37,669 bases of DNA from a virus: IMG/VR virus record IMGVR_UViG_3300013119_000685, positions 1 through 37,669 of that record; one strand, given 5' to 3'. Position 1 is the first letter of the stretch. The number at the start of each line of letters is the position of its first letter. Under the pieces are notes generated by a model. That model was not told the origin of the DNA and did not search any database. It worked only from the letters and a program-made list of their open reading frames with translations. Made by a program: the position numbers and the translations under genes. Below are positions 1,404 to 37,669 of the stretch, one piece after another.

Positions 1404-2095
1404 AGGTAGATTATTCCTCTTGTAAATATCAACATAAATAAAAGCACAGCATAGTGCGGCTTGGCAATAAGCCGTTTCCACTTGCCCTTTTCGATGAAAA
1501 TCCAGAAACACCGATACCAAAGTTTTGTAACCTTATCATTCGGCCATTTCTCTTTAAATCTTTGCATGCTCTTGGCGTAGTAGACCTTTTTCTTTAGGTA
1601 TCGCCAAAGGTTCGCACCGTCATAGTGCCAAATGCAAGCAGCGGTTATCCCGCGCCGACCTTGAATGCGCCTATCCCAGTCGCTATCTTCCGGGCCTGAC
1701 ATTGTTTCATCAAAACGAGGACAATGTTTTGCCTCGACAAACCGAACAACATCAACTGGAGTGCAAATATAAAACTGCCTTTCCCAATCCCGAAGCCGGT
1801 TAAATAGGCCTGTTCCAAATGTCCTTTCAGGAATGTAAATAGATATGCATTTCTCTGCAAGTGCCATACATTGCTCTATAACTTTCGGCTCAACCATCTG
1901 ATCGCTATCAAGTATCAAGTAATAATCCCCCTTTGCTCTATCCATGCCGATATTCCTTTGAGCCGACCTCTCTTTGCCCTCATCAACAACAATAATTTCT
2001 ATGTTTTTATAAGTCGATTGTTTAATGCAGGCAACACAGTTTTCTATCTGTGCGTCTTTATGTGTCGGTATTATTATACTAACTAATGGTTTCAT
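1385..2095 (-). CDS. Glycosyltransferase family 2 (GT-A fold)
   Basis: A 236-residue GT-A glycosyltransferase. The first strand and nucleotide-binding site are VSIIIPTHKD near the N-terminus; ILDSDQM carries the DxD-type metal-binding motif; a GPEDSDWDRR stretch later in the protein resembles the ED acceptor-side motif of the family. ATG 2095 overlaps the upstream stop as ATGA, so I prefer it to the in-frame ATG three codons earlier (2104). A C-terminal hydrophobic stretch (HYAVLLFMLIFTRGIIYL) suggests membrane contact. It sits between a two-helix membrane protein and a GT4 gene in the cargo operon. The sugar is unknown. Confidence 0.88.
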   Translation of the reverse strand: MKPLVSIIIPTHKDAQIENCVACIKQSTYKNIEIIVVDEGKERSAQRNIGMDRAKGDYYLILDSDQMVEPKVIEQCMALAEKCISIYIPERTFGTGLFNRLRDWERQFYICTPVDVVRFVEAKHCPRFDETMSGPEDSDWDRRIQGRRGITAACIWHYDGANLWRYLKKKVYYAKSMQRFKEKWPNDKVTKLWYRCFWIFIEKGKWKRLIAKPHYAVLLFMLIFTRGIIYLCAKKF

Positions 2096-2304
2096 ATTTT
2101 CCATCTATTCTTTGCAAATCCTGTTACCAAATAACATATCAAAACACCAATTATTAAAAATGGACATAACATCAATGATATAAGAATACTAAATCCCCTA
2201 TTTTCTCTTTGATCATCATTTGGTTGTATCGCAGAATAATGTGCAAATAAAATCCCATAACAAACCCAAAAACAGATAACGCAAAGAATTGAATATGTTA
2301 TCAT
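2092..2304 (-). CDS. Small two-helix membrane protein
   Basis: A 70-residue protein with two hydrophobic helices: residues about 3-24 (YSILCVICFWVCYGILFAHY) and about 39-62 (ILISLMLCPFLIIGVLICYL), with a polar loop containing NDDQRENR. It overlaps both neighbours by ATGA (start 2304 with the radical SAM stop; stop 2092 with the GT2 start), so it is clearly part of the glycan operon. It is too small for a GtrA-type flippase, which has four helices, but its place between sugar enzymes suggests an accessory membrane role. No family recognised. Confidence 0.7.
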   Translation of the reverse strand: MITYSILCVICFWVCYGILFAHYSAIQPNDDQRENRGFSILISLMLCPFLIIGVLICYLVTGFAKNRWKI

Positions 2305-3695
2305 CCCTTCACCACCTTTCCTAAATCATGAAAGTTTCCGAACCTGTCATAGACCTTTTGACCTATGCGAATATAATATTTCAAATCCTCAAAGCTCTTT
2401 ATTCCCGCAATTTTTCGTGCGATAAACTCTGGATGGAACGCAGCATTGTAAATCCCTTTTTGAAGCGCAAACAATCTCTTTTCATAATAAGGAAGCTTCA
2501 TTACCGGCTTTGACATATCGTAATCTGTCCAATCTTCTGTGGCAAGCTTGCCCTGCTCTTTACACTCCTGCCAAAGCGGCGTTCCGGGATATGGTATGCA
2601 GATTGTCGCCTGCGCGCTTGAGGCCCACCCTTTTTTGAGCAACCACCGCACCATATTGTAAGTCCTTTTTGCATCCTCGCAGCTTTCCCAATGGTATCCG
2701 AACATAACCGTCAAATGGCTTTCAAGCCCTGCGGCCCGCGCCAATATCAAGTCCTGCATTACCGCCTTTTTGTCATAGCCCTTATTCAGCTTGTCAAGCG
2801 TTCTCTGATTAGCGCTTTCAAATCCCCAGAGCAACATCCTGAAACCGGCCTGCTTGAGTAGTGCAAAATCTTTTTCACCTAAAGCGCCAAATCTCATATT
2901 ACAGCTAAAGGCAACATGGTCGTTGTAACCCCTGTCGATAACCTCTTGGCAAAAAGTTCGCAGCCATTCCCCTGTCGGAAAAGTGCCGCTATCATCAAAG
3001 ATTTCCTTGAAGCCCATGCAAATCAACCCTTCAATTTCCGTTAAGACATCCTGCACATCCCTGATATGATAATTTTTATGATAGGTGGCCCAAGAGCAAA
3101 ACTTGCACTTGCGATACCAACAATCCATCGCTGACATGATATAAGTTCCGGGCAGGTATCTGAAGTTTCCATTCTTATAAGCATAAAGCCATGAGTTCGT
3201 AATCTGCCTGTTGATATGAGGTAATGGCGTTTTCTTATCCCATTCTGCGCCAGTTATAATCTTAAATACCTCATAATGCCAATCGCCGCCCTGAACAATA
3301 AAATCTGCATTGCATTCCTTTTTGCTTTCCTCTGGAAGCGCGGTTACATGCTGCCCGCATAAAATAACTTTGATATGCGGAAGGAATTGCTTTATGCCAT
3401 TAATCACTTCCCAGTATCTTTTAATTAAAGGCGTAGGCGCTTCAAATATTAAATACTGCGGCATCATCTGAACTATGGCCCGACCAAACTCTACTTCATT
3501 TAATTCGGAAGCCACCGCATCAAGCCATAATACCTGCGCTTTGCCGGAGTTCGCAAGCATGGTAGCTGATAAGGCCGGCACAATAGGGTAGGCAAAGAAT
3601 GGATCGGTAAACCATTGGAACTGCCTATTCTGCCCTATGGTTGCATAGCCCTTTGCATTTTTCATGGGTGGAACTACATAGATAACTTTTTGCAT
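2301..3695 (-). CDS. B12-binding-domain radical SAM protein
   Basis: 464 residues. The N-terminal ~150 form a B12-binding-like domain (VLWLDAVASELNE, then CGQHVTALPEE at about 113-123). A radical SAM TIM barrel follows, with a cysteine cluster at C192, C197 and C200, that is CX4CX2C (DCWYRKCKFC) rather than the usual CX3CX2C. FGYHWESCEDAKRT and the ATICIPYPGTPLW stretch are typical later barrel elements. Family members use 5'-deoxyadenosyl radical chemistry, often methylating or rearranging lipids, peptides or antibiotics. As the first enzyme of the cargo cluster it probably modifies a glycan or lipid. The start overlaps the upstream stop (TAATG) with AGGAG upstream. The substrate is not predictable. 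Confidence 0.88.
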   Translation of the reverse strand: MQKVIYVVPPMKNAKGYATIGQNRQFQWFTDPFFAYPIVPALSATMLANSGKAQVLWLDAVASELNEVEFGRAIVQMMPQYLIFEAPTPLIKRYWEVINGIKQFLPHIKVILCGQHVTALPEESKKECNADFIVQGGDWHYEVFKIITGAEWDKKTPLPHINRQITNSWLYAYKNGNFRYLPGTYIMSAMDCWYRKCKFCSWATYHKNYHIRDVQDVLTEIEGLICMGFKEIFDDSGTFPTGEWLRTFCQEVIDRGYNDHVAFSCNMRFGALGEKDFALLKQAGFRMLLWGFESANQRTLDKLNKGYDKKAVMQDLILARAAGLESHLTVMFGYHWESCEDAKRTYNMVRWLLKKGWASSAQATICIPYPGTPLWQECKEQGKLATEDWTDYDMSKPVMKLPYYEKRLFALQKGIYNAAFHPEFIARKIAGIKSFEDLKYYIRIGQKVYDRFGNFHDLGKVVKG

Positions 3696-4257: not shown

Positions 4258-5055
4258 TTATAAGGGGGGTGACAATTTATCCCCACCCTTTGCTATATTA
4301 TTGAGTCTTTTAACCGCTATATCGCAGTATTCTTGGCTTATCTCAATTCCAATAAAATTACGATTTAATACTTTCGCCATTTTTAAAGTTGTGCCACTAC
4401 CACACATTGGGTCTAAAACTAAATCTCCTTTATTGCTCCAAGATAATATATGGTCTTGGGCGAGTTTTTCGGGAAAAGTGGCGGGATGATTTGTTTTCTC
4501 ATTTCCAGCACCAACGACATATTCAAAAATATTCCCTTTTATTTTTTCATTTTTATAAACCAATTTCTCATCTCTATTATGTCTTATACTGTGGTTATCA
4601 TAATTACAAGGTCTTTTGGGGTTATGAGTTTTCCCCGCCAATTTCGTTGGCATCTTTATCGGATTAAAAGTTTTTGGCTTGTCTTTTGATAAAATAAACA
4701 TATACTCAAACTCTTGCTCATATCTATTGTGCGTCAAAGGAATATAATTTACCTTTCTATATATCATCGTATCATGCAAATTAAATCCTATCTCCTTAAA
4801 ATAAAGTGCTTGTTTAAAAGATGTTCCCGTTTCGCTTCCGTTAATTGTCGCATCACCTACTACCCAAACCACCACTCCGCCTTTCTTCATCACTCGGTAT
4901 AATTCTCTGGTTATCGGCTCAAAGTTGAAAGTATATCCTTTGTAATCTCGTAAATTGTCATATGGCGGGGAAGTAACTACTAAGTCCACGTAATCACTTG
5001 GTAGTGTTTTAAGCACCTGTTCGCAATCACCTTGTATTACTTTATTAAGCATCAT
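4258..5055 (-). CDS. DNA methyltransferase, beta class (TSPPY; probably N4-cytosine)
   Basis: 265 residues. The catalytic motif IV TSPPY is at residues 28-32 and the SAM-binding motif I DPMCGSGTT is near residue 217, in the IV-before-I order of beta-class amino-methyltransferases. TSPPY is the form usual for N4-cytosine enzymes, though some N6-adenine enzymes share it. The target recognition region is the intervening ~150 residues. No restriction endonuclease is nearby, so a role in protecting phage DNA from host restriction is likely. The start is an ATGATG pair, 5055 or 5052, overlapping the upstream gene by 11 bases. Confidence 0.88.
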   Translation of the reverse strand: MMLNKVIQGDCEQVLKTLPSDYVDLVVTSPPYDNLRDYKGYTFNFEPITRELYRVMKKGGVVVWVVGDATINGSETGTSFKQALYFKEIGFNLHDTMIYRKVNYIPLTHNRYEQEFEYMFILSKDKPKTFNPIKMPTKLAGKTHNPKRPCNYDNHSIRHNRDEKLVYKNEKIKGNIFEYVVGAGNEKTNHPATFPEKLAQDHILSWSNKGDLVLDPMCGSGTTLKMAKVLNRNFIGIEISQEYCDIAVKRLNNIAKGGDKLSPPL

Positions 5056-5317: not shown

Positions 5318-5661
5318 TTCTTTAGCTCCTTTATTTCTGCCTTAAGACGAGCTATTATTGGTAAATATATCTTATCTACCCTATCATCTAAAATAACTGC
5401 CAACCTTTTAAATGGCTCTACTTGCTCAAAAGGTATCAGTTCATTTACAGATAATCTCGTTACTTCTGATATACAAACATCTTGAGGCATCTCCTCTTTC
5501 GCCTCTATCAAAATATCTAATGCTTTGAGGGCTATTTTGAGGGCTTGACTTCTCTCTGCTTCTACTCCACAAGGCTGACAATTTCTTCTACTGGATTGAT
5601 ATAAATTCTCATAATGTTTTTGTATTTTTTCTATTATCTCTCTCGTTTCCTCATAATTCAT
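5314..5661 (-). CDS. Hypothetical helical protein, 115 aa
   Basis: Not recognised. It is predicted to be mostly alpha-helical, with a CQPCG pair at about residues 29-33 and a lysine-rich C-terminal helix (ARLKAEIKELKK). It starts at ATG 5661 behind TAAGGAG, a translation start region that is duplicated exactly at 6350-6369. The start lies inside the end of the MT-A70 gene (11-base overlap) and its stop overlaps the next start by ATGA. Confidence 0.6.
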   Translation of the reverse strand: MNYEETREIIEKIQKHYENLYQSSRRNCQPCGVEAERSQALKIALKALDILIEAKEEMPQDVCISEVTRLSVNELIPFEQVEPFKRLAVILDDRVDKIYLPIIARLKAEIKELKK

Positions 5662-6205
5662 TTGGGTTGCTCCTTAGTTCTATATCACTTTCTACTTCAT
5701 TACCCCACACATCCCAACCCTCTGTTTTTTCTCTTGCAAAGAGTTCTATCCGAGGTAAATCGCCTAAGAGTTCTATAATTTTACTTTTCACAATATCAGG
5801 CTTTTGAGAGTGTCCTCTAATAGGAGAAAAAACTAATTGGAAAACACTCTTTGATATTCTTTTTGGTTTCCCTTTGGCTGCGATTAAGCAAGGTTCAGTA
5901 TTCCCCCTTGTCCAACGACCAAGACCATAAAAAGGTTTTAAGTTTTTCTTGTTCAATTTAACCCATTGGAAAGCGATGCTTTTATATTTAAATCCCCAAT
6001 GTTTAATAACCTCTAATGCTTCAGGGTATAGTGGATATGTCGCCCACAAAAACAAAACACAATCATTGTCAGATATTGCATCTATTGACAAAGAACTAAT
6101 ATCTTTCAAGCTCATTGTCTTGTAGTGAGCAGCGCAAGCACCATTACAGTTTTTGTCTCGGTATCTCCATGGTGGATCTGCATAAATAATCTGATATTTC
6201 TTCAT
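5651..6205 (-). CDS. MT-A70 family N6-adenine methyltransferase
   Basis: 184 residues from ATG 6205. The catalytic DPPW motif is at residues 10-13 (MKKYQIIYADPPWRY), typical of MT-A70/IME4-type N6-adenine methyltransferases found in phages and bacteria. WATYPLYPEALEVIKHWGFKY and WTRGNTEPCLIAAKGKP are conserved family segments, and SQKPDIV near the C-terminus resembles the HSxKP motif. The longer open frame back to 6286 overlaps a separate 46-codon gene whose TGA overlaps ATG 6205 (ATGA), so I use the short start. It is probably a solitary methyltransferase that marks phage DNA against host nucleases. Confidence 0.9.
   Translation of the reverse strand: MKKYQIIYADPPWRYRDKNCNGACAAHYKTMSLKDISSLSIDAISDNDCVLFLWATYPLYPEALEVIKHWGFKYKSIAFQWVKLNKKNLKPFYGLGRWTRGNTEPCLIAAKGKPKRISKSVFQLVFSPIRGHSQKPDIVKSKIIELLGDLPRIELFAREKTEGWDVWGNEVESDIELRSNPNEL
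5657..5676 (-). repeat. 20-bp duplicated translation start region, copy A
   Basis: Minus-strand TAAGGAGCAACCCAAATGAA is identical to 6350-6369. Here it provides the ribosome-binding site and ATG of the 115-residue gene, and also encodes part of the C-terminus of the MT-A70 gene in another frame. Confidence 0.85.
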
Positions 6206-6342
6206 TTCATCCCCATAACAGCTATGCTTATACCAATAGCTGATAACCAATACAAAGCCTTGAAATAGTTTCTCTCTACAAGACAAGCTATCATAACTAC
6301 AAAATAGTTAAGCATTAGCCATTTAATTAAATTATTACTCAT
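6202..6342 (-). CDS. Small membrane protein, 46 aa
   Basis: Starts at ATG 6342 (MSNNLIKWLMLNYFVVMIAC) and ends with TGA overlapping the MT-A70 start. It has two hydrophobic stretches (LMLNYFVVMIACLV; ALYWLSAIGISIAVMGM) separated by ERNYFK, giving a helical hairpin in the membrane. GTGAGGG lies just before the start. The overlap with its neighbour supports translation. Function unknown; small hydrophobic hairpins in phages can be holin-, superinfection- or envelope-related, which I cannot separate. Confidence 0.6.
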   Translation of the reverse strand: MSNNLIKWLMLNYFVVMIACLVERNYFKALYWLSAIGISIAVMGMK

Positions 6343-7347: not shown

Positions 7348-7509
7348 TTAAAACTCCTTCAATCTGCATAATCCAAATAAACACCAACAGCGCTTGCACA
7401 TAGCATAATTCATTTTTATATGGAATGCGAACGGCGTAGGCCGTAGCCGCCTTTTCATATCACAATAATTGCATTTACCTTTATGATATTTAGATTTCTT
7501 CTTTTCCAT
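7348..7509 (-). CDS. Small zinc-ribbon-like protein, 53 aa
   Basis: ATG 7509 lies inside the end of the glycosyltransferase gene and follows GAGAGGGG. The 53 residues are lysine-rich at the start, then carry CNYC (C13, C16) and CKRCWC (C38, C41, C43) plus C48, a CxxC-x21-CxxC spacing like a zinc ribbon. Its TAA overlaps another ATG (7348) that has its own AAGGAG site and reads 12 codons into the tRNA-like element before stopping. Probably a nucleic-acid-binding or adaptor protein; no family assigned. Confidence 0.6.
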   Translation of the reverse strand: MEKKKSKYHKGKCNYCDMKRRLRPTPFAFHIKMNYAMCKRCWCLFGLCRLKEF

Positions 7510-8203
7510 ACACCCCTCTCTTTTTATTATACCAAACTTTCAATGTATCAATAAATGTTTGCGTTATAGTTTTTACACTAACGCTGCCCGGCCCTGATTG
7601 TTTGTAAATGTTCACCGGCGCATCCGCGATCCGAAACATCCGTTCCTTGCAGGCCACTATCAATTCCAGATCAAGCGCAAAACCTTTTATCTTTAAGCAA
7701 TCAATCACTTCATTTAAAACTCGTTTCCTGAATAACTTCAACCCGCATTGAGTATCCCGAAGCTCAATCCCGAATAGCTTGCGACACATGAAATTATAGC
7801 CATCGCTTATGAAGCGCCTATGCAAAGGATATGTCAGGTTGCTATATGGGTGTCGCTTGCTTCCAACCACCCCATCAGCATTATATAATTCCATTATCCT
7901 TAAGAAAACTTGTAATTCATGCAGCGCTACTTGCAAGTCGGCATCCATTATGGCCACATATTCGTATATTGTTTTTCTGATACCCTTCAAAATGGCGCTG
8001 CCTTTTCCTCTGTTTGGATAGTGAGTTAATACCATATCTGCAACTTTCCTTGCCTTGTGGAATGTTCCATCTGTCGATCCATCATTAACAACTATAATCT
8101 CATTCCTGATTTCCATCGCCTTAAGCTGCTCTTTTATCCGCAACACATTGTCCTTAATGGTATTACATTCATTGTAAGCGGGTATTACAACGCTTAAATC
8201 CAT
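7490..8203 (-). CDS. DPM1/GtrB-like GT2: polyprenyl-phosphate sugar synthase
   Basis: 237 residues with the full signature of dolichol/undecaprenyl-phosphate glycosyltransferases: MDLSVVIPAYNE at the N-terminus, IIVVNDGSTDGT, NRGKGSAILKGI, the metal-binding MDADLQ, and DTQCGLKLFRKRV. Family members transfer mannose, glucose or a related sugar from a nucleotide donor to a polyprenyl phosphate on the cytoplasmic face. The product would be the natural donor for the GT-C enzyme encoded at 31369-32826. It lacks the two C-terminal membrane helices of many GtrB proteins, so it is probably peripheral. The start overlaps the replication gene stop (TAATG), so it is made with early replication proteins rather than from the main cargo cluster. 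Confidence 0.88.
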   Translation of the reverse strand: MDLSVVIPAYNECNTIKDNVLRIKEQLKAMEIRNEIIVVNDGSTDGTFHKARKVADMVLTHYPNRGKGSAILKGIRKTIYEYVAIMDADLQVALHELQVFLRIMELYNADGVVGSKRHPYSNLTYPLHRRFISDGYNFMCRKLFGIELRDTQCGLKLFRKRVLNEVIDCLKIKGFALDLELIVACKERMFRIADAPVNIYKQSGPGSVSVKTITQTFIDTLKVWYNKKRGVYGKEEI

Positions 8204-8940
8204 TATTTTACATCCCCTATGCCTGCAAGTAGGCCCTTCAGCTTCTCAGATACCCCAATTTGAGCCAAATCCTGTGCCTGTTGAATGTTTTTATCCCGGT
8301 TGAAGTCCTTGTATGCCTGATCGCAGGACTTGACAAAATAGCCCCATTTGTTGCTGATTTCGCCTTTTGAATTGCTGTGCAGGTAGGTTTCGCATACCTT
8401 TACAATCACTTCTTCCGGTAAATAGGCCTTTAGCTTCTTTTTAAGCTTGTTGTTAAACTTGTATATGGCGAAGCCAGTCTTTTCAACTTGCTTCATTAAA
8501 GCAGCGGTTTTTTCGCTAATATTTACTTTACTTTCCTTTACTTTACTTTCCTTTACTTGTGGGAGAGTAACTCTCGACCTACCCTGGAGTAACTCTGGAG
8601 TTACTCTTGATATAAGCGGTTTTCCTTCCTTCTCTGGATACAATCTCGGCTGCTTTTCTGTAAAATCAGGCACATAAAGGAATATATCGCCATCATGATT
8701 AAAGCGTTGTATCAATTTGTTTTCTTCCAAATCTTGCAAATATCCTTCAATAGTATCATCGCCCTTGTTTAGCCGGGTAACCACTTTTCCGTTAACTACC
8801 TTTGGATCGCCGGAGAAACAACCGTTAATATCTAAATGAGGAATTAGCCAAGTATAGAGCAATCTTGCGCCGTCAGTTTTAAGCATAGCAAGCTTCTTGC
8901 TTTCCGATATGGACTTCAATATTATTCTACCCTGTGGCAC
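8203..8940 (-). CDS. Phage replication initiator (winged-helix replisome organiser)
   Basis: About 245 residues from GTG 8940, which has AAAGGA upstream; ATG 8973 is the alternative. The N-terminal segment (RLLYTWLIPHLDINGCFSGD, then IEGYLQDLEENKLIQRF and YVPDFTEKQPR) matches phage replisome-organiser proteins with a winged-helix DNA-binding domain. A charged linker with repeated KESKV leads to a C-terminal helical region (LPEEVIVKVCETYL; WGYFVKSC) like helicase-loading domains. The linker is encoded by iterons that recur beside DnaA boxes at 30588-30689, so the gene probably contains, or resembles, the origin it recognises. No helicase or polymerase is encoded, so host replication machinery is presumably recruited. 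Confidence 0.78.
   Translation of the reverse strand: MPQGRIILKSISESKKLAMLKTDGARLLYTWLIPHLDINGCFSGDPKVVNGKVVTRLNKGDDTIEGYLQDLEENKLIQRFNHDGDIFLYVPDFTEKQPRLYPEKEGKPLISRVTPELLQGRSRVTLPQVKESKVKESKVNISEKTAALMKQVEKTGFAIYKFNNKLKKKLKAYLPEEVIVKVCETYLHSNSKGEISNKWGYFVKSCDQAYKDFNRDKNIQQAQDLAQIGVSEKLKGLLAGIGDVK
8522..8606. other. Iteron cluster inside the replication gene (candidate origin)
   Basis: The plus strand has seven five-base units (TTTAC or TTTCC) at 8522-8556, then TTGTGGGAGAGTAA, then a perfect inverted repeat GAGTAACTC-TG-GAGTTACTC at 8587-8606. Nineteen bases (8552-8570) are identical to 30613-30631, and GAGTAACTC words recur at the same spacing there. Origins embedded in initiator genes are known in lambda and related phages. 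Confidence 0.6.
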
Positions 8941-28927: not shown

Positions 28928-29073
28928 TATGTAAAAAACATCATTGCTAAACCAATTATGCCGCGCACTATTCTAATACTGTGGCACTTTACCCAACTCT
29001 CACTTGGATATGAGAATACGCTATAAATGCAATCAGCCAACAACCATACACCACACATCTTTATCCAAACCAT
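28927..29073 (-). CDS. Small membrane protein, 48 aa
   Basis: ATG 29073 overlaps the TAA of the ParB-methyltransferase gene, and its own TAA overlaps ATG 28927 of the terminase: TAATG at both ends, with GGAG upstream. The product begins MVWIKMCGVWLLADCIYSVF and ends IIGLAMMFFT, giving two short hydrophobic segments around a polar loop (SYPSESWVKCHSIRIVRG). It fills exactly the gap between two well-supported genes. Function unknown. Confidence 0.65.
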   Translation of the reverse strand: MVWIKMCGVWLLADCIYSVFSYPSESWVKCHSIRIVRGIIGLAMMFFT

Positions 29074-30269
29074 TATATCTTCTCCGCTTTAAGGTTTGTA
29101 TATTTCTCCCATCGGTCAATTATAACCTGACAATACAGAGGGTCTATCTCCATCATATAGCATTTACGATTTGTTTTTTCACAAGCTATTGCAGTTGTTC
29201 CAGTTCCAGCAAATAAATCAACAACTATTGAACCATAATTATAACCATGATCTATAAATCTTAATGGCAACTCAAGAGGATATGTATCATTATGAATTTT
29301 TGTATTTATATTTTCTCTACTCGCACTATCTGTTTCTATATAATTTGAAAAATTACCTCTAAACCTTTTATTGCCCCATCTCCGAGAGTTTTCCTTGCCC
29401 AATAAAATAATTACCTCAACTTGTGAATTAGCTACATTCTCAGCCATTGCAGGTGCAACCTGCAATTTTTTCCAATAAAATATATCTTTAAAATAACCAG
29501 ATAAATCGCCAAGCCACCTCAATATTTCTCGTTTATTATTCGCTAATAGTTGAATATTAACAAAAACTTCTTTTGCAATATCCAGCGCAATTAATGTTGA
29601 ATACTTTATTAAATCTTGATAATTCGGTAAATTATCATCACTACTAATATATTTACTCGTTGTTTTATACCCTAAATTATGCCCCACATTATACGGCGGA
29701 GAATGAAACACCATATCCGCTTTCTGCCCTGCCATTAGCTTTTCAACATCTTCCTTTTTCGTTGCATCTCCGCACATAAGTCTATGATTACCAAGAAGAT
29801 ATATATCTCCAAGCTTAACATCCGTTTCTTGCCTAACCTCTGGAACATCATCAGCTTCTTCATCTTTATCCAACTGGAATATCTTATCAAGCTCCTCGCT
29901 GTCAAATCCTACATCCTTAAGCAAGTCCTCGTTAAAATTCGCCAATAAGTCTATATCCCAACTACCCAAGTTTTTGTTTAACCGCAGATTTAATTCCTGC
30001 TCTTTTTCCGGTGGCAAATTTACAAAAACGACAGGCACTTCTGTATATCCAAGTTTTTGCGCTATGTTCCAACGCTGATGGCCGCCTATGATTATATTTT
30101 CTCTGGCAGGGTATTGGTTTACAATAAGAGGATCTTTAAGGCCGAAGCGTTTAATGCTTTCAGATAAATCTTTAAACTGCTTATCGGTAAGCTGGCGAGG
30201 ATTATATTCAGCAGGCCGCAAAACTTTTATATCTATATATCTAACTTGAATTTTCGCCTCTGTGTCCAT
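29073..30269 (-). CDS. ParB-domain DNA methyltransferase, 398 aa
   Basis: The N-terminal ~100 residues form a ParB/Srx-type domain (IKVLRPAEYNPRQLTDKQFK; IGGHQRWNIAQKLG). The C-terminal ~250 are a beta-class amino-methyltransferase, with motif IV HSPPYNV and motif I VDLFAGTGTT. Such fusions are common in phages and integrated elements, where the ParB domain may bind DNA or a nucleotide. ATG 30269 has AAAGGTGG upstream; the 14 extra codons to 30311 have none. A promoter-like sequence lies about 113 bases upstream. It probably methylates phage DNA just before packaging. Confidence 0.88.
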   Translation of the reverse strand: MDTEAKIQVRYIDIKVLRPAEYNPRQLTDKQFKDLSESIKRFGLKDPLIVNQYPARENIIIGGHQRWNIAQKLGYTEVPVVFVNLPPEKEQELNLRLNKNLGSWDIDLLANFNEDLLKDVGFDSEELDKIFQLDKDEEADDVPEVRQETDVKLGDIYLLGNHRLMCGDATKKEDVEKLMAGQKADMVFHSPPYNVGHNLGYKTTSKYISSDDNLPNYQDLIKYSTLIALDIAKEVFVNIQLLANNKREILRWLGDLSGYFKDIFYWKKLQVAPAMAENVANSQVEVIILLGKENSRRWGNKRFRGNFSNYIETDSASRENINTKIHNDTYPLELPLRFIDHGYNYGSIVVDLFAGTGTTAIACEKTNRKCYMMEIDPLYCQVIIDRWEKYTNLKAEKI

Positions 30270-30362
30270 CGCCAGCCACCTTTCAAAAAAAATAGAGAGC
30301 GCGCACTTCATCTGTGCGTCAACTCTCTTTGAGTTCTTTACTTCGTTTGTTTGTTCCGGGCC

Positions 30363-30530
30363 TTACGCTGCGCCTACTATTGCTATAAATAATACCATAT
30401 AATTTTTAAAAGTCAAGTTTTTTTCTTTGCGCTTAACTTTTAAACGCTTTCTCGGCGTCCATTTTATGGCCTCATAGTTTTTGTCAAACTTTGAGTTATC
30501 CACAGGCCTATATTTATCACCCTTACCCAT
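30363..30530 (-). CDS. Small basic phage protein (MGKGDK type), 55 aa
   Basis: ATG 30530 encodes MGKGDKYRPVDNSKFDKNYE and continues with a very basic part (WTPRKRLKVKRKEKN) and a hydrophobic end (YMVLFIAIVGAA). The MGKGDKxRPV start is a recurrent small-protein N-terminus in phage genomes as I remember them; its role is unknown. A TTATCCACA box (30496-30504) lies inside the RPVD codons, and the late promoter hexamers lie in its last codons. AAGGTAG is about 12 bases upstream. Confidence 0.55.
   Translation of the reverse strand: MGKGDKYRPVDNSKFDKNYEAIKWTPRKRLKVKRKEKNLTFKNYMVLFIAIVGAA
30389..30416 (-). promoter_or_regulatory. Probable sigma-70 promoter for the late unit
   Basis: Minus strand TTGACT (30416-30411), 16-base AT-rich spacer, TATTAT (30394-30389). 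It lies upstream of the ParB-methyltransferase and structural genes. The TATGGTAT around the -10 box resembles the early promoter at 11858, but the full inverted-repeat operator is absent. The leader of about 110 bases contains two small hairpins (CGCAC/GTGCG; AACTC/GAGTT). Confidence 0.6.
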
Positions 30531-30587
30531 TTTGTTTTTTCTACCTTATCAATTTCATTTAACAACAGGCCGTTTTTTGGGCTGTTA

Positions 30588-30689
30588 TTTACTTTACTTT
30601 ACTTTACTTTACTTTACTTGTGGGAGAGTAAGTCGAGAGTAGGTCAAGAGTAACTCTAGAGTAAACCACTTATCCACAGGTTATTCACA
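30588..30689. other. Candidate replication origin: TTTAC iterons plus two DnaA boxes
   Basis: Six tandem TTTAC units (30588-30617), then TTGTGGGAGAGTAA shared with the replication gene, then GAGTA-type repeats including GAGTAACTCTAGAGTAA (30648-30664). Two consensus DnaA boxes follow: TTATCCACA (30670-30678) and TTATTCACA (30681-30689). A third TTATCCACA lies at 30496-30504 inside a small gene. The 167 bases between the genes (30531-30697) hold no protein gene. AT-rich iterons beside DnaA boxes are the usual makeup of theta-replication origins. Confidence 0.65.
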
Positions 30690-31272: not shown

Positions 31273-31372
31273 CTTCCTGTCCTTTCATCTTAAAATAAAA
31301 ACCTATTATGCCACCCGCCACAAGCGCCATTATAAAAACTACTGCGCAGAGCTTAGGCGTTGGAATTGTCAT
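31256..31372 (-). CDS. Single-span membrane protein, 38 aa
   Basis: ATG 31372 overlaps the stop of the GT-C gene (ATGA). It begins MTIPTPKLCAVVFIMALVAG and continues GIIGFYFKMKGQEDDKDT: one transmembrane helix with a charged tail. The tight overlap suggests it may accompany the GT-C enzyme in the membrane. Below normal gene-size cut-offs. Confidence 0.55.
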   Translation of the reverse strand: MTIPTPKLCAVVFIMALVAGGIIGFYFKMKGQEDDKDT

Positions 31373-32826
31373 TTCTTCTCCGCCACCGGCACACTTACTT
31401 CCGGCGTTCCCGGTGCTGCTTCTTCTTTTTTCTGTGTTAATACTTTATTATCTATTAAGAATTTAATAAGCAAGTCAAGATCGTCTTTCGGCTTCTTCCA
31501 ACGCGGCTCAATCTGCAACGCCATCTTCCAACAATCCAATGCCCGCAAAAATCTATTCTTGCCTTCGATAGTCTGCAAGTGGCCTGTGGCCGCCCATGTT
31601 ACGCCCAAATTATACCAGAGCAGCTTATTCTGATTGTCAAGGTCTATGCCCCGCTTGATAACAACCCGCGCTTCCTCAAACCTGTTTTGATGTATCAGGA
31701 AAAAGCCCAAATTGTTCAAGCCGTAATCACTTCTCGGATGGTTACGCCAATTCTCCCGGTAGAGCTTTTCGTCATTAACCATGTGCCTGCTGTATGTGTA
31801 TGCCTTTGAAGCGTATATCGCTATTATGGCAACGAAGATTTCCGGATGGACTACGACATAAGGCGCCGCCACAAGCGCAAGGCCCATGCTTCCAAAATAA
31901 ACATACCTGTCCTGCAAATAGGAATTGGTGGCCAATATATTCATGTTCGGAAGCATACCCAGCAGATACCACCACCCGGCCACGCCCTTTGTTGCAAGCC
32001 AAGCGGCCAAACCATATCCCATTAAGGCCCAAGCATTGAAACCGTCCCATGCGGAGTTAAACCTGAAGCCACCTTCATGATACCATCCCATCTTTACCGG
32101 AAAAGCTGTTATCCCGGCATAATATATATACACCCTCGCCAAGTTCGTAAACCTGCGCTTATTAAACCGGTAGTGCGTGCGATCTAAAATTAAAGCGCCT
32201 GTGCCAAAGCGTTGCTTGAACTTCCAAACACCCCAACCCATCATACAAAGCATAATAATAAGATATAAAGTAGGTTGCCACGCAGTAGGTTGCATTATCT
32301 TAATAAGCACAGGCAGAAAAAACACCGATAAGCTCGTCATAGTTGCCAAGATATAAAGTGGCAACACAACATAAAGCTTATCCCAAAGCAATATAGACAC
32401 AAGCGCAAGACAGGTTGATATCCCATACGGTCGGCCGCTACACCAAACCGCTATTTGATTTTGCATAGGATTGGTTGTCCAGAGAAGCGTTGCAGGTATA
32501 GCGGCAGTCGGCCCGATCAGCTTTGCTGCCACAAGATAGAAAAGATAAGTATTAAGCATGTGCAGCAAATAATTAAATAAATGCCACCCAAAAGGCGTTT
32601 GCCCAAATACTGCCCATAAAGCTTTATTCAGATAATACATGACAGGCCCATCGTTCAGCACCTTGAGCCAATGATTTTCCTTCTTTGGAGTTTTTTCGCC
32701 TTCCGGGATAATATCCTTCCTGCGCTCAATTACGGCATGGTCATCTGAAATAAACCCGCACAACAAAGAGTAATGCCAAGTAATCGCCGATATTCCCAAA
32801 ACAAGCTGTATGTTCCAATCAATCAT
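31369..32826 (-). CDS. GT-C membrane glycosyltransferase with C-terminal TPR (TMTC-like)
   Basis: 485 residues with about ten hydrophobic segments. The first periplasmic loop has ISDDH (D28, D29), the position of the catalytic acidic pair in GT-C enzymes. WHLFNYLLHMLNTYLFYLVA and IAVWCSGRPYGIST, then YLQDRYVYFGSMGLALVAAP, match TMTC-type O-mannosyltransferase-like proteins. Residues about 370-460 form two or three TPR-like helices (YGLNNLGFFLIHQNRFEEAR; LWYNLGVTWAATG; ALDCWKMALQIEP). GT-C enzymes use polyprenyl-phosphate sugars, which the DPM1-like enzyme at 7490 could supply. It probably adds a sugar outside the inner membrane. It overlaps the RmlD-like gene by eight bases. Confidence 0.8.
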   Translation of the reverse strand: MIDWNIQLVLGISAITWHYSLLCGFISDDHAVIERRKDIIPEGEKTPKKENHWLKVLNDGPVMYYLNKALWAVFGQTPFGWHLFNYLLHMLNTYLFYLVAAKLIGPTAAIPATLLWTTNPMQNQIAVWCSGRPYGISTCLALVSILLWDKLYVVLPLYILATMTSLSVFFLPVLIKIMQPTAWQPTLYLIIMLCMMGWGVWKFKQRFGTGALILDRTHYRFNKRRFTNLARVYIYYAGITAFPVKMGWYHEGGFRFNSAWDGFNAWALMGYGLAAWLATKGVAGWWYLLGMLPNMNILATNSYLQDRYVYFGSMGLALVAAPYVVVHPEIFVAIIAIYASKAYTYSRHMVNDEKLYRENWRNHPRSDYGLNNLGFFLIHQNRFEEARVVIKRGIDLDNQNKLLWYNLGVTWAATGHLQTIEGKNRFLRALDCWKMALQIEPRWKKPKDDLDLLIKFLIDNKVLTQKKEEAAPGTPEVSVPVAEKK

Positions 32827-33682
32827 TATAATATTCCTTCAGGTAATCTTCCAAGCTTTCGCGCCAACCGCGCATGGCGCTGACAGAAGGCGGCGTCATA
32901 ATTGAAACCATACCTTCGTTTGTTGCTCTCGGCGCAAAGTATTTGCTATCAAAAACCTTGCTTTGAACCGCAATTACTTCTGCGTCCGATTTCATAAGCT
33001 CAACGATTGCCTTTGCCACTTCACATCTTGTCGTAACGCCCTTGCCAGCAACATGGTAAATGCCATGCGGCTGTCTATTCTCAAGGAAGCGCTTAATGGT
33101 TTTGGCAACATCCCTTGTATATGTAGGCGAGCCGAGCTTATCATCTACGGCGTATATCTGCTTTTTGCCTCGCTTCACCTGCTGATAAATAGCATTGACG
33201 AATTTCTTGTCAAGCTTCGGGCCGCCGCCCATAGCCCAAGACATGCGCAGGATATATTTATTCGGATAATAATGCAGGGCAAGTTCCCCATAATACTTGC
33301 TTCTGCCGTAATGATTGATAGGATTGGCCCTGTCGTGCTCGGAATACGCCTCTTTTTGCTGTCCGTCAAATATCCCTGCCGTTGACATATAGACAATCGG
33401 AATAGCGCCTTCTTCAAGCGCCGCTATGGCAATATTCTGCGTGCCTATGGTATTGGTAAAATAGGCATGGTCAGGCCTTCTCTCGCAGATTTCAAGGTCG
33501 GTTTCCGCCGCCAAGTGCAAAATAGCCGAAGGCATAGTTTCCTTTATCTTCCTGCGAACCTCATATATATCCCTAACATCCATATCGAATATATCTGTCG
33601 CTATAAGTTCGTGTTTTCCCATAAACTCTTTGCGTATAGCTTCGCTAAGCATACCATTTGCACCTGTGCAAAGTATCTTCAT
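32819..33682 (-). CDS. RmlD-like NAD(P)-dependent sugar reductase
   Basis: 287 residues, an extended SDR of the dTDP-4-dehydrorhamnose reductase type. TGANGMLSEAI carries the Rossmann glycine motif, shortened relative to GxxGxxG. VYMSTAGIFDG holds the serine/threonine site, and YGRSK contains the catalytic Tyr125 and Lys129. DKLGSPTYTRDVAKTI and GIYHVAGKG are conserved RmlD/MAT2B-family segments. The expected reaction reduces a 4-keto nucleotide sugar to a deoxysugar such as dTDP-rhamnose. No RmlA, B or C is present, so host intermediates would be used, or the substrate differs. Confidence 0.85.
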   Translation of the reverse strand: MKILCTGANGMLSEAIRKEFMGKHELIATDIFDMDVRDIYEVRRKIKETMPSAILHLAAETDLEICERRPDHAYFTNTIGTQNIAIAALEEGAIPIVYMSTAGIFDGQQKEAYSEHDRANPINHYGRSKYYGELALHYYPNKYILRMSWAMGGGPKLDKKFVNAIYQQVKRGKKQIYAVDDKLGSPTYTRDVAKTIKRFLENRQPHGIYHVAGKGVTTRCEVAKAIVELMKSDAEVIAVQSKVFDSKYFAPRATNEGMVSIMTPPSVSAMRGWRESLEDYLKEYYND

Positions 33683-34686
33683 AAATATCTCCTTATCTGC
33701 CTTAAAACTTCAGGCGCTCGCTTTTTCCAGTCCCAAGTTTTAGCCCATTGCTTTGCCTGCTCTCCTTCTTTCTGCACTTCCTGCGGATTATCTAAAGCAT
33801 AAATTATTGTCCTTGCGAATTGCTCTGTATCCTTGCAGGCAGACACGCCTTTTATCCTCTTGAAATATTGCAGGACGGGCAATCTGAACATTATCATAGG
33901 GCAGCCGCAGGCCATCGCTTCAACCGAACCCATGCTAAAATGTGAATATTCAACAGGCGTTGTATATAAAACAAGCTTGCTTTTTTTATATATCTCAAAG
34001 CGTTCATCACCCATATAGCCAAGCAAATCTACATTGTCATGCCAAGCTGCCCATTGACTAAGCTTTTCTTCTTCGCTGTCCCCGCCACCTATTATAGCAA
34101 GCCTAGCTTCTGGCATAATATCAGATACCAAACCCCAAATCTTCATAAGCTCGTCTATGCCCTTTGTCTTATGGAAGCGGCCAATAAACACGCAATCGTA
34201 TTCCTTTTTGAAATTACCTCTTGGTATCTTCTCAAAATTAACCCCGCCATGAACTGCGATTAACTTCTTGCCCTTGAACTTATCAAACATGCTTTCATTG
34301 GTAACGCATACGACATCCGCAAAAAGCTTGATAATCCAATATGCAATCTTCTGCGAATAGTAATATATTTTATTATCCTTTGGTGCAAAAAGATAAAAGC
34401 TTGCAACCCATTTACAGCCCTTTAACTTATAGATAAAGCCGGGAAAAGTATCCATCCAAAAATCAGAAGATGTATATACAAATTCGTATTTGTTCTTATC
34501 AAACAAAGCTACAAAGCAACCGAGCATTATGCGATTAAGATATGCCAACCAAAATGGTTTAAAGTCAACATTTTGCATTTCATATATATAAATCCTGTCC
34601 TTCCAATATCTTCTGAAATTCAGATAGATATTATCGCTACCTGATAAGCCACCCTTCCACCTTGCGTTTGCTATTATTAAAATCAA
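33679..34686 (-). CDS. Glycosyltransferase family 4
   Basis: 335 residues, GT-B fold. The N-terminal domain is unusually rich in aromatic residues (FYLFAPKDNKIYYYSQKIAY). The C-terminal domain has DCVFIGRFHKTKGIDELMKI, LAIIGGGDSEEEKL, VDLLGYMGD and SHFSMGSVEAMACGCPMI. The last is the EX7E region, in which the first Glu appears to be Ser (SHFSMGSVE), a notable change because that Glu normally contacts the donor sugar. It overlaps both neighbours by four bases. Donor and acceptor are unknown. Confidence 0.86.
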   Translation of the reverse strand: MILIIANARWKGGLSGSDNIYLNFRRYWKDRIYIYEMQNVDFKPFWLAYLNRIMLGCFVALFDKNKYEFVYTSSDFWMDTFPGFIYKLKGCKWVASFYLFAPKDNKIYYYSQKIAYWIIKLFADVVCVTNESMFDKFKGKKLIAVHGGVNFEKIPRGNFKKEYDCVFIGRFHKTKGIDELMKIWGLVSDIMPEARLAIIGGGDSEEEKLSQWAAWHDNVDLLGYMGDERFEIYKKSKLVLYTTPVEYSHFSMGSVEAMACGCPMIMFRLPVLQYFKRIKGVSACKDTEQFARTIIYALDNPQEVQKEGEQAKQWAKTWDWKKRAPEVLRQIRRYL

Positions 34687-35303
34687 ATCATGCCCCTCAG
34701 TTTTAATCGGTAAACCTCTATTTTGCTCAAATCCGGATATCCTTGATCATCAACTGGCAAATCCTTGAGCTTTTTCCTTTTCAAACTATTAAACAGCATA
34801 AGCCCTTTTGCGGCCTGTGGTGGCGTCATATACATATTCCAACCAAGCATGCTTATTTTATCCTCAGAAAGCGGGACTTCATTGCGCCCATCAAACCTCG
34901 CTGCTTTGAAATAAATATATGCCTCTCTGCTATCTGTTAAAATCATGCCACCCCTTCCAATCGGCAAATGCTTTTTAATATGGAACGATAAGCAATACAA
35001 GCTGTCCTTGATATACATGCCCCTTTCAAAACGCAACGCACTATCGTATATCTCGTATGGTCGAAGCTGATATATTCCACTCCAAGCTTCATTGTGGAAG
35101 CTAACCTTCCCGCCTGCATGAATAATACTGCAAGCCACGCCGGGATAGGTGTGCTTCGGGATATGCACCCATCGCACCTTTTTATAGAGGCAACAAAGGA
35201 ACAAAGCATTTGTGCAGCTTGAAACCGCAATTGCATATTTCGATCCGGCATATTCCGCAACCTTTTCCTCGAATGCCCTTACTATCTCATATTCATTCTC
35301 CAT
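34683..35303 (-). CDS. Shortened DegT/DnrJ/EryC1-type aminotransferase, 206 aa
   Basis: The large PLP domain is recognisable: AIAVSSCTNALFLCCL (the SGTxAL region), HIPKHTYPGVACSII, YEIYDSALRF with Asp87 for the pyridine nitrogen, and LSFHIKKHLPIGRGGMIL with Lys111 at the PLP position. Full enzymes have about 370-400 residues; this one starts at the FEEKVAEYAG segment and ends soon after the PLP lysine region. The C-terminal small domain is nearly absent. Key residues are kept and the frame is intact, with coupled overlaps at both ends. So it may be a minimal functional enzyme or a non-catalytic derivative, rather than simple decay. Family role: amino-sugar synthesis. Confidence 0.75.
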   Translation of the reverse strand: MENEYEIVRAFEEKVAEYAGSKYAIAVSSCTNALFLCCLYKKVRWVHIPKHTYPGVACSIIHAGGKVSFHNEAWSGIYQLRPYEIYDSALRFERGMYIKDSLYCLSFHIKKHLPIGRGGMILTDSREAYIYFKAARFDGRNEVPLSEDKISMLGWNMYMTPPQAAKGLMLFNSLKRKKLKDLPVDDQGYPDLSKIEVYRLKLRGMI

Positions 35304-36069
35304 ATCTCACCCTATAATAATCAGGATTACTCTCATCTAAAATTCCAAGCGCCTGAACAACCCAAAGTTTTTTGTAATCCAATAAGTATAGGGCATAAAT
35401 AACATACATCACAACCCATCTAAAAGTTCCGATTATAGTTATACAAATTATCGCAAGCGGCATAATGTTGAACAAAGCACCTAAGACAATCCAATACCTA
35501 ACTGTATAAAAAGATAACGCCAACCAACTTGAAGTTGGGTCAATCAAATTCTTCAAAAACCTGTTAAGAAAATTATCCTTCTCGTTCATATATCCCCTGA
35601 ACAGCTTGTTGCCCTTGTAGCTGTTAAAACCAAAACGATTGTTATAATAAACACTGATTACATTCATAATACTGTTGCCGATAAAAAACAGCATTACGAC
35701 GGCCAAGAGGAAAGGTAAAACCTTCGCTGTTAAACCCTTCAATATGCCGAAGCATATAGCCGCCATAATGCTATTTTGCAATATGATATCGCCTATGCTG
35801 TCAAACCACTCGCCGGCTTTTGAAGATAATCCTGTCCGCCTTGCCAAGTCACCGTCAACATAGTCTAATATTATATTGACAATACACGCACAAAGACCAA
35901 GCAGGTAGCCCAAGTGCGTGCCTCTTGAAAACAAAAAGCAAACTATTGTTATTGTAAAAAGAAAATTAAATACAGTAACCTGATTAGGTGTAATGCCTAA
36001 AGAGATAAACGGCTTCGTTATAATCGGGCTTATCTTTTCGTTATATATTTTATGTGTCCATTCTGTCAT
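35293..36069 (-). CDS. CDP-alcohol phosphatidyltransferase
   Basis: 258 residues, an integral membrane enzyme with about six helices. The complete family motif is present: D69-x2-D72-G73-x2-A76-R77-x8-G86-x3-D90-x3-D94 (within DYVDGDLARRTG and AGEWFDSIGD). These Asp residues bind the metal and the CDP-alcohol. Family members transfer a phosphatidyl or phospho-alcohol group, making lipids such as phosphatidylinositol-phosphate or phosphatidylglycerol-phosphate, or similar headgroups. A phage-encoded copy among glycosyltransferases suggests a glyco-phospholipid anchor or modified lipid. It overlaps the methyltransferase stop (ATGA) and the aminotransferase start. Confidence 0.9.
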   Translation of the reverse strand: MTEWTHKIYNEKISPIITKPFISLGITPNQVTVFNFLFTITIVCFLFSRGTHLGYLLGLCACIVNIILDYVDGDLARRTGLSSKAGEWFDSIGDIILQNSIMAAICFGILKGLTAKVLPFLLAVVMLFFIGNSIMNVISVYYNNRFGFNSYKGNKLFRGYMNEKDNFLNRFLKNLIDPTSSWLALSFYTVRYWIVLGALFNIMPLAIICITIIGTFRWVVMYVIYALYLLDYKKLWVVQALGILDESNPDYYRVRYGE

Positions 36070-36668
36070 TTTTTAACAAGGCATGCGCAAATCTGCCCTT
36101 TCCTTTCTGTGTATTCTGCTATGTGGAAATTAGAACTAACTATCTCTTTTAAAAAATCTTCATAAGAAAAACCTTCCCACTCATGTCCCTGCGCATATTC
36201 TTTTGTAGGTATTGTCAAAAGCAATCTCCCCCCTCTTTTTAAATTTAATGCCATAGTTTCAACTGCCTTATAGGGATATTTCGTATGCTCTAAAACAGAA
36301 ATGCAAGTTATAAAATCAAAATTTTCGACAAATTTATGTTTAATAGTTATATCTTTTAAAATGAAAGCTATCCTTTTTAACTTCTCCTGATAAGGTCGTA
36401 TATCCAGCCCGTAAGTTCGATACCCCCTTTTCTTTAGTTCGTATATGAATAAAGAAGAAGTTGTTCCAATATCAAGCACTTTAAATTGTTGCCACTTATC
36501 TAACTTTGGCAAATACTCTAAAACCCAATCCCATTCATCTGCTCTTATGTGCCATCCTGTTATTCTGTATGCCCAATACAACATCTTAAATCTAAGCGCA
36601 CCGCAAAATCCAAGAGATTTAAATTTTTTCACAATTGTATTTGCTAAAAAGGTTTTAACTTTTTCCAT
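36066..36668 (-). CDS. Class I SAM-dependent methyltransferase
   Basis: 200 residues. FKVLDIGTTSSLFIYELKKR and TYGLDIRPY form the SAM-binding Rossmann motifs. FDFITCISVLEHTKYPYKAV and RGGRLLLTIPTKEY are the classic post-motifs of UbiE/Methyltransf_11-type small-molecule methyltransferases. In this setting it probably methylates a sugar, lipid or headgroup. GAGGGCGAT precedes ATG 36668, which overlaps the radical SAM gene end by 25 bases. Confidence 0.86.
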   Translation of the reverse strand: MEKVKTFLANTIVKKFKSLGFCGALRFKMLYWAYRITGWHIRADEWDWVLEYLPKLDKWQQFKVLDIGTTSSLFIYELKKRGYRTYGLDIRPYQEKLKRIAFILKDITIKHKFVENFDFITCISVLEHTKYPYKAVETMALNLKRGGRLLLTIPTKEYAQGHEWEGFSYEDFLKEIVSSNFHIAEYTERKGQICACLVKK

Positions 36669-37669
36669 ATCGCCCTCACAGTAAAAAAGATTTCGTTCTG
36701 CAACATAGCAAGAGGGATAAACCCTCTGCCCGATTTTAAATATACTAAAAGCTTAATAATCCATAACGGCAATATCTCATAAGCTATCCCGCCAAGTGGT
36801 ATGGCCGCAAAACCCTTTGCATACTCTTTATAAAACTTGCTCGGCTGATTGCCCTGCTGATAAGTTATGCTCTTTCCCTCGTTTATCTTTTGGATTTCAG
36901 AAGGCATTATCGCACCTGTCCTGACAGCTATATCTATTATTTTCGCTTTCGGAAAATATACCAGCTCATAACAATTGATTATATCAGGATTGATTTCCGT
37001 ATAAAGATTATAGCTTATGTCCTGCGAGCCTGCATTTTCTGTCGGTATGCCGAATATATGGTCAACGATTAGCTGTATGCCTGCGTCTTTTATCAGCTTG
37101 CATTTGTCAACTATTTCCCTATTGCTTTCAGGCCTATTCATTATTTGTTTGCGCAAGCGCTCATCACCGCTTTGTATGCCGAGCCAAGCGGTATGGCAGC
37201 CCGCTTCTTTTAATTGCATGATAACTTCCTCATCTAAAAATCTAACATGCGCAAAACAGCAGAAAGGTGAGCCAATGTGTTTTTTATATTCAATAAGGAA
37301 ATGCTTCAGCCACTTTTTATCGGCAGTAAATATATCATCTACAAATAAAACATACTTCATGCCTCTTGTTTTTAGATCCGCAAGTTCGTGAATACATCCC
37401 TCGACTGAACGCCGGAATAGTTTATGCTGCCTTACGGCCCTCAATTGTTCATTCCCGCAAAAAGAGCAATTAAAAGGGCAGCCGAAGCTTGTCATAAATA
37501 ACTGATATTTCCTATGCACCGGCGGAAGCTCTTTAAGGAATATTTCCCTGTCTGGCCATAACACATCAGGGTTAAACTTGCCGCCAAAGTATTCAACCCC
37601 GCAACCGGTAACAACCTCATCAATGAACCTATGCTTCTTGACTTCTTCCGGCACAAGCGTTGCATGAAT
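36644..37669 (-). CDS. Cobalamin-binding radical SAM protein, C-terminal part (gene crosses the contig join)
   Basis: Continuation of the gene that starts at 425; together 443 residues. The radical SAM cluster motif SFGCPFNCSFCGNEQ gives C166, C170 and C173 in the full protein (CX3CX2C), which hold the 4Fe-4S cluster that cleaves SAM. VLFVDDIFTADKKWLKHFLI, HTAWLGIQSGDERLRKQIMN and LIVDHIFGIPTENAGSQD are typical barrel segments. An N-terminal B12 domain plus this barrel defines class B radical SAM enzymes, often methyltransferases. A C-terminal helical tail (YEILPLWIIKLLVYLK) is hydrophobic and may touch the membrane. Read linearly, the window cuts this gene in two. Confidence 0.88.
   Translation of the reverse strand: MHATLVPEEVKKHRFIDEVVTGCGVEYFGGKFNPDVLWPDREIFLKELPPVHRKYQLFMTSFGCPFNCSFCGNEQLRAVRQHKLFRRSVEGCIHELADLKTRGMKYVLFVDDIFTADKKWLKHFLIEYKKHIGSPFCCFAHVRFLDEEVIMQLKEAGCHTAWLGIQSGDERLRKQIMNRPESNREIVDKCKLIKDAGIQLIVDHIFGIPTENAGSQDISYNLYTEINPDIINCYELVYFPKAKIIDIAVRTGAIMPSEIQKINEGKSITYQQGNQPSKFYKEYAKGFAAIPLGGIAYEILPLWIIKLLVYLKSGRGFIPLAMLQNEIFFTVRAIWKKLKPF
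37551..37669. repeat. Terminal direct repeat, copy 2 (contig circularity overlap)
   Basis: Exact copy of bases 1-119. Removing one copy and joining the ends restores an uninterrupted 443-codon gene on the minus strand (425 down to 1, then 37550 down to 36644). See the entry for copy 1. Confidence 0.95.

Follow-up and report, generated by a model that had tools for sequence, protein, structure and literature searches.

Origin-type iterons and a pentamer array within a phage replication initiation gene, and a duplicated intergenic copy beside DnaA-type boxes

The window analysed here is a whole virus record of 37,669 nucleotides (IMGVR_UViG_3300013119_000685), and because its ends share a repeat of 119 bp we read it as a circle of 37,550 bp. 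Two clusters of short repeats lie on this circle, one inside the gene for a replication initiation protein (Rep) and the other in an intergenic stretch with the terminase/ParB-methyltransferase genes on one side and a glycan cassette on the other (Table 1). A first-pass annotation had located clusters at 8522-8606 and 30588-30664 and judged them to be about 15.5 kb apart on the circle; both are present, separated by 15.45 kb one way and 22.0 kb the other. It had also proposed GC skew around the two sites as a check; no break is seen in the window at either the 8.5- or the 30.6-kb site, and skew is uninformative where, as here, nearly all genes lie on one strand. The glycan/lipid-modification cassette (426-3695, 7490-8203 and 31369-37654) comprises four glycosyltransferases, an RmlD-type epimerase, a DegT aminotransferase, a CDP-alcohol phosphatidyltransferase, two radical-SAM proteins, a methyltransferase and a TPR protein, and may alter the surface sugars of the host. 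Three genes of DNA-methyltransferase type are also present, at 4258-5055, 5651-6286 and 29073-30311 (N6/N4 type, MT-A70 type and ParB-methyltransferase fusion).

Rep matches the replication-initiation family phrog_1408 of PHROG (E 9.2e-09) and no Pfam family at gathering score, and its relatives begin at the same residue, on which the predicted GTG start is based. An exonuclease-type gene (phrog_298) adjoins it. The structure model of Rep (mean pLDDT 58.6, weak outside residues ~11-100) gave no match in the PDB at E<=0.001, and the matches of the N-domain, itself modelled with low confidence, were no more than winged-helix-like, each with an E value exceeding 0.03.

Read along the minus strand, the two clusters share one order, namely 11-bp iterons, a leader CCCACAA and a pentamer array, and the repeats in the Rep gene exceed chance. 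The TTTAC tandem units in the gene follow a 15-bp period, TTTACTTTACTTTCC, and encode a linker which had been given as KESKVKESKV and reads VKESKVKESKV; the intergenic array has a pure 5-bp period over 6.4 copies. A pure GTAAA array would place a TAA stop in every frame, and so it is the GGAAA unit in every 15 bp that keeps the Rep frame open. The intergenic iterons have 0 mismatches to ACTCYnGAnnnACTCYnGAnnnACTCY and those in the gene at least one; the equal spacing described earlier holds for the 11-bp step, though one of the in-gene units is imperfect and partly inverted. The perfect 9+9 inverted repeat which had been described at the end of the gene copy is found as GAGTAACTC-TG-GAGTTACTC. 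The intergenic copy is followed, as had been noticed, by TTATCCACA and TTATTCACA, and the further TTATCCACA at 30496 had been overlooked. These three are the only TTATNCACA boxes in the window, all within 194 bp around the intergenic copy, and three TTATNCACA within 200 bp occurred in 0/400 shuffles. The intergenic stretch thus carries a cluster of DnaA boxes beside iterons, as in DnaA-dependent iteron origins.

Table 1. Coordinates and strands of the features at the two repeat clusters
Feature	Position in window	Strand	Remarks
Rep gene (replication initiation protein)	8203..8940	-	phrog_1408; GTG start inferred from relatives
In-gene pentamer array	8522..8558	-	(GTAAAGGAAAGTAAA)n on coding strand; encodes VKESKVKESKV
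In-gene 11-bp iterons	8565..8607	-	ACTCYnGAnnn type; include perfect inverted repeat 8587-8606
Identical run of 20 bp, CTTTACTTGTGGGAGAGTAA	8551..8570 = 30612..30631		leader, ends of array and iterons
ParB-methyltransferase fusion gene	29073..30311	-	neighbour of intergenic cluster
DnaA-box consensus TTATCCACA	30496..30504	+	
Decayed coding flank	30545..30587	-	26/43 identical to 8479-8521
Intergenic pentamer array	30588..30619	-	GTAAA x6; stops in every frame of minus strand
Four regular 11-bp iterons	30625..30662	-	ACTCTnGAnnn; 11-bp units extend over 30624-30664
DnaA-box consensus TTATCCACA	30670..30678	+	
DnaA-type box TTATTCACA	30681..30689	+	
Zinc-ribbon-like ORF, 51 aa	30698..30853	-	DUF2116, below cut-off; neighbour of intergenic cluster

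The intergenic copy derives from the Rep gene by duplication, since the similarity continues for 43 bp past the repeats. Over these 43 bp, 26 positions agree. By blastn the Rep gene matches the intergenic stretch at 8e-18 over 123 columns, and the identical run, previously counted as 19 bases, has a length of 20. When the intergenic flank is placed in all 75,252 ways on the two strands of the window, this score is reached twice, which we take to be the match to itself and the match to the gene copy. By our own reading the intergenic copy appears to resemble, in frame, the Rep sequence that follows the array, but it would stop within the array. The origin of this copy in a coding segment, and the occurrence of the TTTAC array as a DNA word in many phages, had escaped the first-pass annotation. 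The 18-mer TTACTTGTGGGAGAGTAA, with up to 3 mismatches, occurs in the window only at the two clusters (shuffle mean 0.03), and GAGTAACTCT, with up to 1 mismatch, occurs at 8 sites where 0.85 are expected, 7 of them inside the two clusters; together with the flank placements, these figures lead us to reject a chance origin of the clusters. Independent convergence of the two copies is rejected because homology extends into the decayed coding flank. Identity in the flank has fallen to 60%, whereas the 20-bp stretch with the leader is still intact, and the intergenic array and iterons are more regular than those in the gene. Such decay beside preserved words suggests selection on the words as DNA, and slippage could contribute to the uniformity of the pentamers.

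Phage-specific iterons followed by a GTAAAGGAAAGTAAA array are found in 78 other viral records, so that the layout is widespread; a strand-biased array after in-gene iterons is the rule both in Reps related to that of the window and in unrelated ones. The 31-base word GTAAAGGAAAGTAAAGTAAAGGAAAGTAAAG is present in 79 viral records, on 80 contig stretches (one record is a fragment nearly identical to the window), mostly near the middle of an ORF of the size of Rep, and also in 21 stretches of bacterial genome contigs whose titles name Paenibacillus, Oceanobacillus, Megasphaera, Rikenellaceae, Tannerella, Spirochaetaceae, Syntrophaceae and others, taxa that span several phyla. The DNA directly 5' of the array differs among phages and is rich in repeated words, for example of GTTTCTGTGACAGAAAC, AATGTAGACATTA and GTAACGCATTAC types. 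Repeated 7-mers cover 32.5 of 85 bp there, whereas in windows drawn at random from these loci they cover 8.1, and repeated words are enriched (p<=0.05) in 31 of 52 non-redundant genes, drawn from the 78 loci with 100 nt upstream.

A scan of synonymous encodings (16,384 combinations, with N, R and Y included and serine as AGY only) found at least 119 stretches. Among the 80 matches listed, from which codons were counted, only 7 encodings are present and the commonest accounts for 42; valine is GTA in 159/160 codons, serine is AGT in 160/160, and it is mainly the lysine before glutamate that varies (AAG 115, AAA 45), a uniformity that is inflated by shared descent of some of the matches. Viral DNA has pure GTAAAx5 arrays in 17 stretches and a related 21-mer in 9; these represent 22 distinct loci, some of which form the tail of an ordinary open frame and show no iterons. 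The 125 bp 5' of the pure array is rich in repeated words (p<=0.013) at 10 of the 21 loci tested, L265 having been excluded as a repeat of L262. Because the codons are almost fixed, and because pure, stop-bearing GTAAA arrays stand outside genes beside iterons and other repeated words, we regard the array as a DNA element and not as a need of the protein. The view of the array as a mere charged linker is rejected on the same evidence, and also because relatives hold the 5-bp AG phase under linkers such as VKLSKDKIRE.

The origin-type repeats, iterons and array, sit inside the Rep ORF, and relatives have the same layout, with 11-bp ACTC iterons followed by a pentamer array. In nine Reps with related N-domains, the window's included, iterons are followed by the array at the same point over differing linkers (VKESKV, VKLSKDKIRE, VNLSEVKLRE). 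The N-domain of the window's Rep (8203-8940) is ~56-70% like those of L034, L081 and L310 (the last compared with a consensus), whereas the C-terminal halves beyond the array look unrelated, which gives the in-gene array the appearance of a recombination joint. We scored AG at a 5-bp phase in 45 bp, taking the best position in each gene. A score of at least 6 was reached by 10 of 15 Rep genes (the window, L034, L081, L313, L315, L316, Tuc2009, r1t, G098 and G095) and by 0 of 272 control ORFs; L310 (5), L312 (5), L311 (4, a 6-bp version), TP901-1 (3) and lambda O (3) fell short. Five of the 15 (the window, L034, L081, G095 and G098) had been chosen through the GTAAA word and all five are positive, while among the ten chosen otherwise 5 reach 6 and 7 reach 5, a score reached by 19/272 controls. 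The pentamer is not universal, since lambda O and TP901-1 rep are without the AG array and L311 has its 6-bp form. Among other non-coding arrays, DnaA-type boxes lie within 400 bp only in L158 and L263 (2/22), so that they are unsupported as a rule there. At L263 8457-8465 a TTATCCACA box overlaps the CCACAAAG leader of the non-coding array, hinting that in some phages the leader may be related to a DnaA box.

A second copy away from the gene is rare. None of the 79 records with the exact in-gene array, some of them possibly fragments, has a separate non-coding array, and none of nine records with a related Rep N-domain, some again possibly fragments, has a second iteron cluster; the absence of the copy from these nine, like the lack of a skew break, is an outcome that the first-pass annotation had named among those refuting its reading. 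When they were scanned for the 11-bp iterons, 7 matched, only inside Rep, and 2 were below threshold. The twin layout is rejected as a common feature, as 78 of the 79 records have one array cluster; the other, G010, has two in-gene clusters near its ends, and there the two arrays (L017, L031), on a 57-kb contig, are similar and non-identical. Exact matches to the shared 17-mer in viral contigs were one chance match (L004) and the near-twin of the window (L005), and single-protein queries with the terminase and Rep returned nothing beyond fragments with 100% matches to the proteins of the window.

Rare as it is, the twin layout recurs with matching iterons in two other lineages. Of the 22 records with a non-coding array, three (G095, G098 and G101) also have an in-gene array with the same iterons. 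The iterons of G095 are of GCCGAAAC type, at sites ~11 kb apart on the same strand; those of G098 and G101, which are one lineage, are of GTTTCYGCGACAGAAAC type, ~15.8 kb apart on opposite strands. The non-coding copies in all three carry the array as well as the iterons. Their Reps match Pfam Lin1244_N and initiator PHROGs, neither of which the Rep of the window matches, and in both the window and G098 genes for packaging and head proteins surround or adjoin the second site. In G096 the Rep gene (L254 3533-4306) has iterons without an array, and a decayed duplicate just downstream of it (L254 4443-4682) has iterons and GTAAAx7, so that here the origin may have moved out of its gene. We read G095, G098/G101 and G096 as possible stages in the copying of an origin out of its gene.

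In-gene origins are already known, as are two origins for one initiator in SPP1. According to PMC6316719 and PMC3485210, the SPP1 sites lie 12-13 kb apart on the circle, oriL inside gene 38 and oriR in a long intergenic stretch among the late genes; forks are proposed to stall at G38P bound to oriR, which would set off sigma replication. The SPP1 layout resembles that of the window, with two sites of similar direct repeats and an AT-rich unwinding element, one in the initiator gene and the other intergenic; in the window the second site has the same repeats and an unwinding-type element in the intergenic stretch, at a distance of 15.45 kb. The likeness is to the published layout, and kinship with gene 38 or its repeats is not claimed. 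Unlike SPP1, the second copy in the window is a visibly decayed gene duplicate that adjoins DnaA boxes. According to PMC8965321, lactococcal replisome organizers bind repeats within their own genes, and these in-gene repeats act as the origin in Tuc2009 and TP901-1. The database record of Tuc2009 also states that rep contains the origin. Tuc2009 (L318 7484-7540, AGGAT/AGGTT) and r1t (L319 7250-7300, AGATA/AGAAT/AGATT) resemble the window in having a 5-bp-period AG array directly 3' of the in-gene repeats, but the iterons and the linker protein of the lactococcal phages differ. In lambda, iterons are annotated within the initiator gene O and are followed by purine-rich DNA; unlike those of the window they are 18-bp and without a 5-bp AG phase. 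Iteron plasmid origins likewise group DnaA boxes with iterons and an unwinding element, but the window has a phage Rep with a putative in-gene origin and not a plasmid RepA- or TrfA-type gene.

We consider it probable, at roughly two chances in three, that one Rep has both clusters as its origin-type sites, the intergenic cluster being a duplicated second origin or a late initiator-binding site like oriR of SPP1. The sequence shows the anatomy, the duplication, the conservation of the DNA words and the recurrence in other phages; binding by Rep, strand opening, helicase loading and the use of host DnaA we infer. The in-gene site would be a standard phage in-gene origin, at which the N-domain of Rep binds the iterons and the adjacent pentamer array serves as a strand-opening or loading element, being opened before the helicase is loaded. 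The intergenic site arose as a duplicate of this segment of Rep, lost its coding sense but kept iterons and array, and would either support the same initiation with the help of host DnaA or be bound late by Rep, as at oriR. The first-pass annotation had offered two origins, or an origin and a control copy, as its reading, which is supported in part. The match to phrog_1408, the recurrent in-gene layout, the twins in G095 and G098/G101 and the precedent of SPP1 speak for it; the relatives and the skew speak against it.

Rep bound at the intergenic copy might instead stall forks coming from the in-gene origin and switch the phage to concatemer-forming replication, as is proposed for oriR. The two-site anatomy and its distance (15.45 kb, and 12-13 kb in SPP1), the packaging and head genes around the second site in the window and in G098, and the exonuclease-type gene by Rep are consistent with a barrier of this kind; the array, however, is the part that a barrier needs least and is the most regular part, the DnaA boxes suggest initiation, and the sites in G098 are on opposite strands, so that we think this possibility somewhat unlikely. 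Plasmids have control iterons that limit initiation, and the intergenic iterons could in the same way bind or pair Rep and restrain the in-gene origin. In favour are the presence of the same iterons away from the gene and the observation, in PMC8965321, that phage-encoded resistance in trans results when the origin regions of Tuc2009 and TP901-1 are cloned, from which it follows that extra origin copies can titrate an initiator. Titration, however, needs neither an array nor DnaA boxes, both of which are present and regular, and the non-coding copies of G095 and G098/G101 have the array too; a control copy is accordingly an unlikely explanation.

Two further explanations we find improbable. 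The intergenic site lies upstream of the ParB-methyltransferase gene, for which there is a promoter-like site at 30416-30389 (minus strand), although such sites are near their chance number (2 found, 1.1 expected), and it could be an operator or promoter element through which Rep or DnaA controls that gene. The cluster nevertheless repeats, with its array, a structure of the Rep gene that cannot be the promoter of the methyltransferase gene, and the non-coding twins of other phages hold iterons and array alike, which makes an operator very unlikely. An inert fragment of the gene whose decay is incomplete would account for the clearly decayed coding flank and for the absence of the copy in relatives, but it leaves unexplained why a flank of 60% identity adjoins an intact 20-bp leader with iterons and array more regular than those of the gene, and why other lineages show the same outcome; we therefore consider an inert relic very unlikely.

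The reading of both clusters as origin-type sites for one Rep can be extended, tentatively and with less than even confidence, to other phages. The 5-bp-phased AG array, most often GTAAA and inside genes GTAAAGGAAAGTAAA so that there is no TAA stop, might be a widely shared phage origin element beside the iterons of each initiator, recognized in its opened, single-stranded form by machinery that bacterial phyla have in common, for example the replicative helicase and its loader, and in-gene origins might be copied, as in the window, into a non-coding second origin. We found no published account of the pentamer array as a shared DNA element in openly licensed PMC texts searched for the linker peptide and the pentamer words. 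If this extension is true, a phage can free its origin from the initiator gene by copying it out, and one DNA word, coding and non-coding, would mark where many unrelated phages may open their DNA. Such a word would make phage origins recognizable by sequence in metagenomic data, and it would open a direct route to whatever reads the exposed single strand there. With a second copy beside DnaA boxes, the question of why SPP1 has two origins would become testable in a separate lineage.
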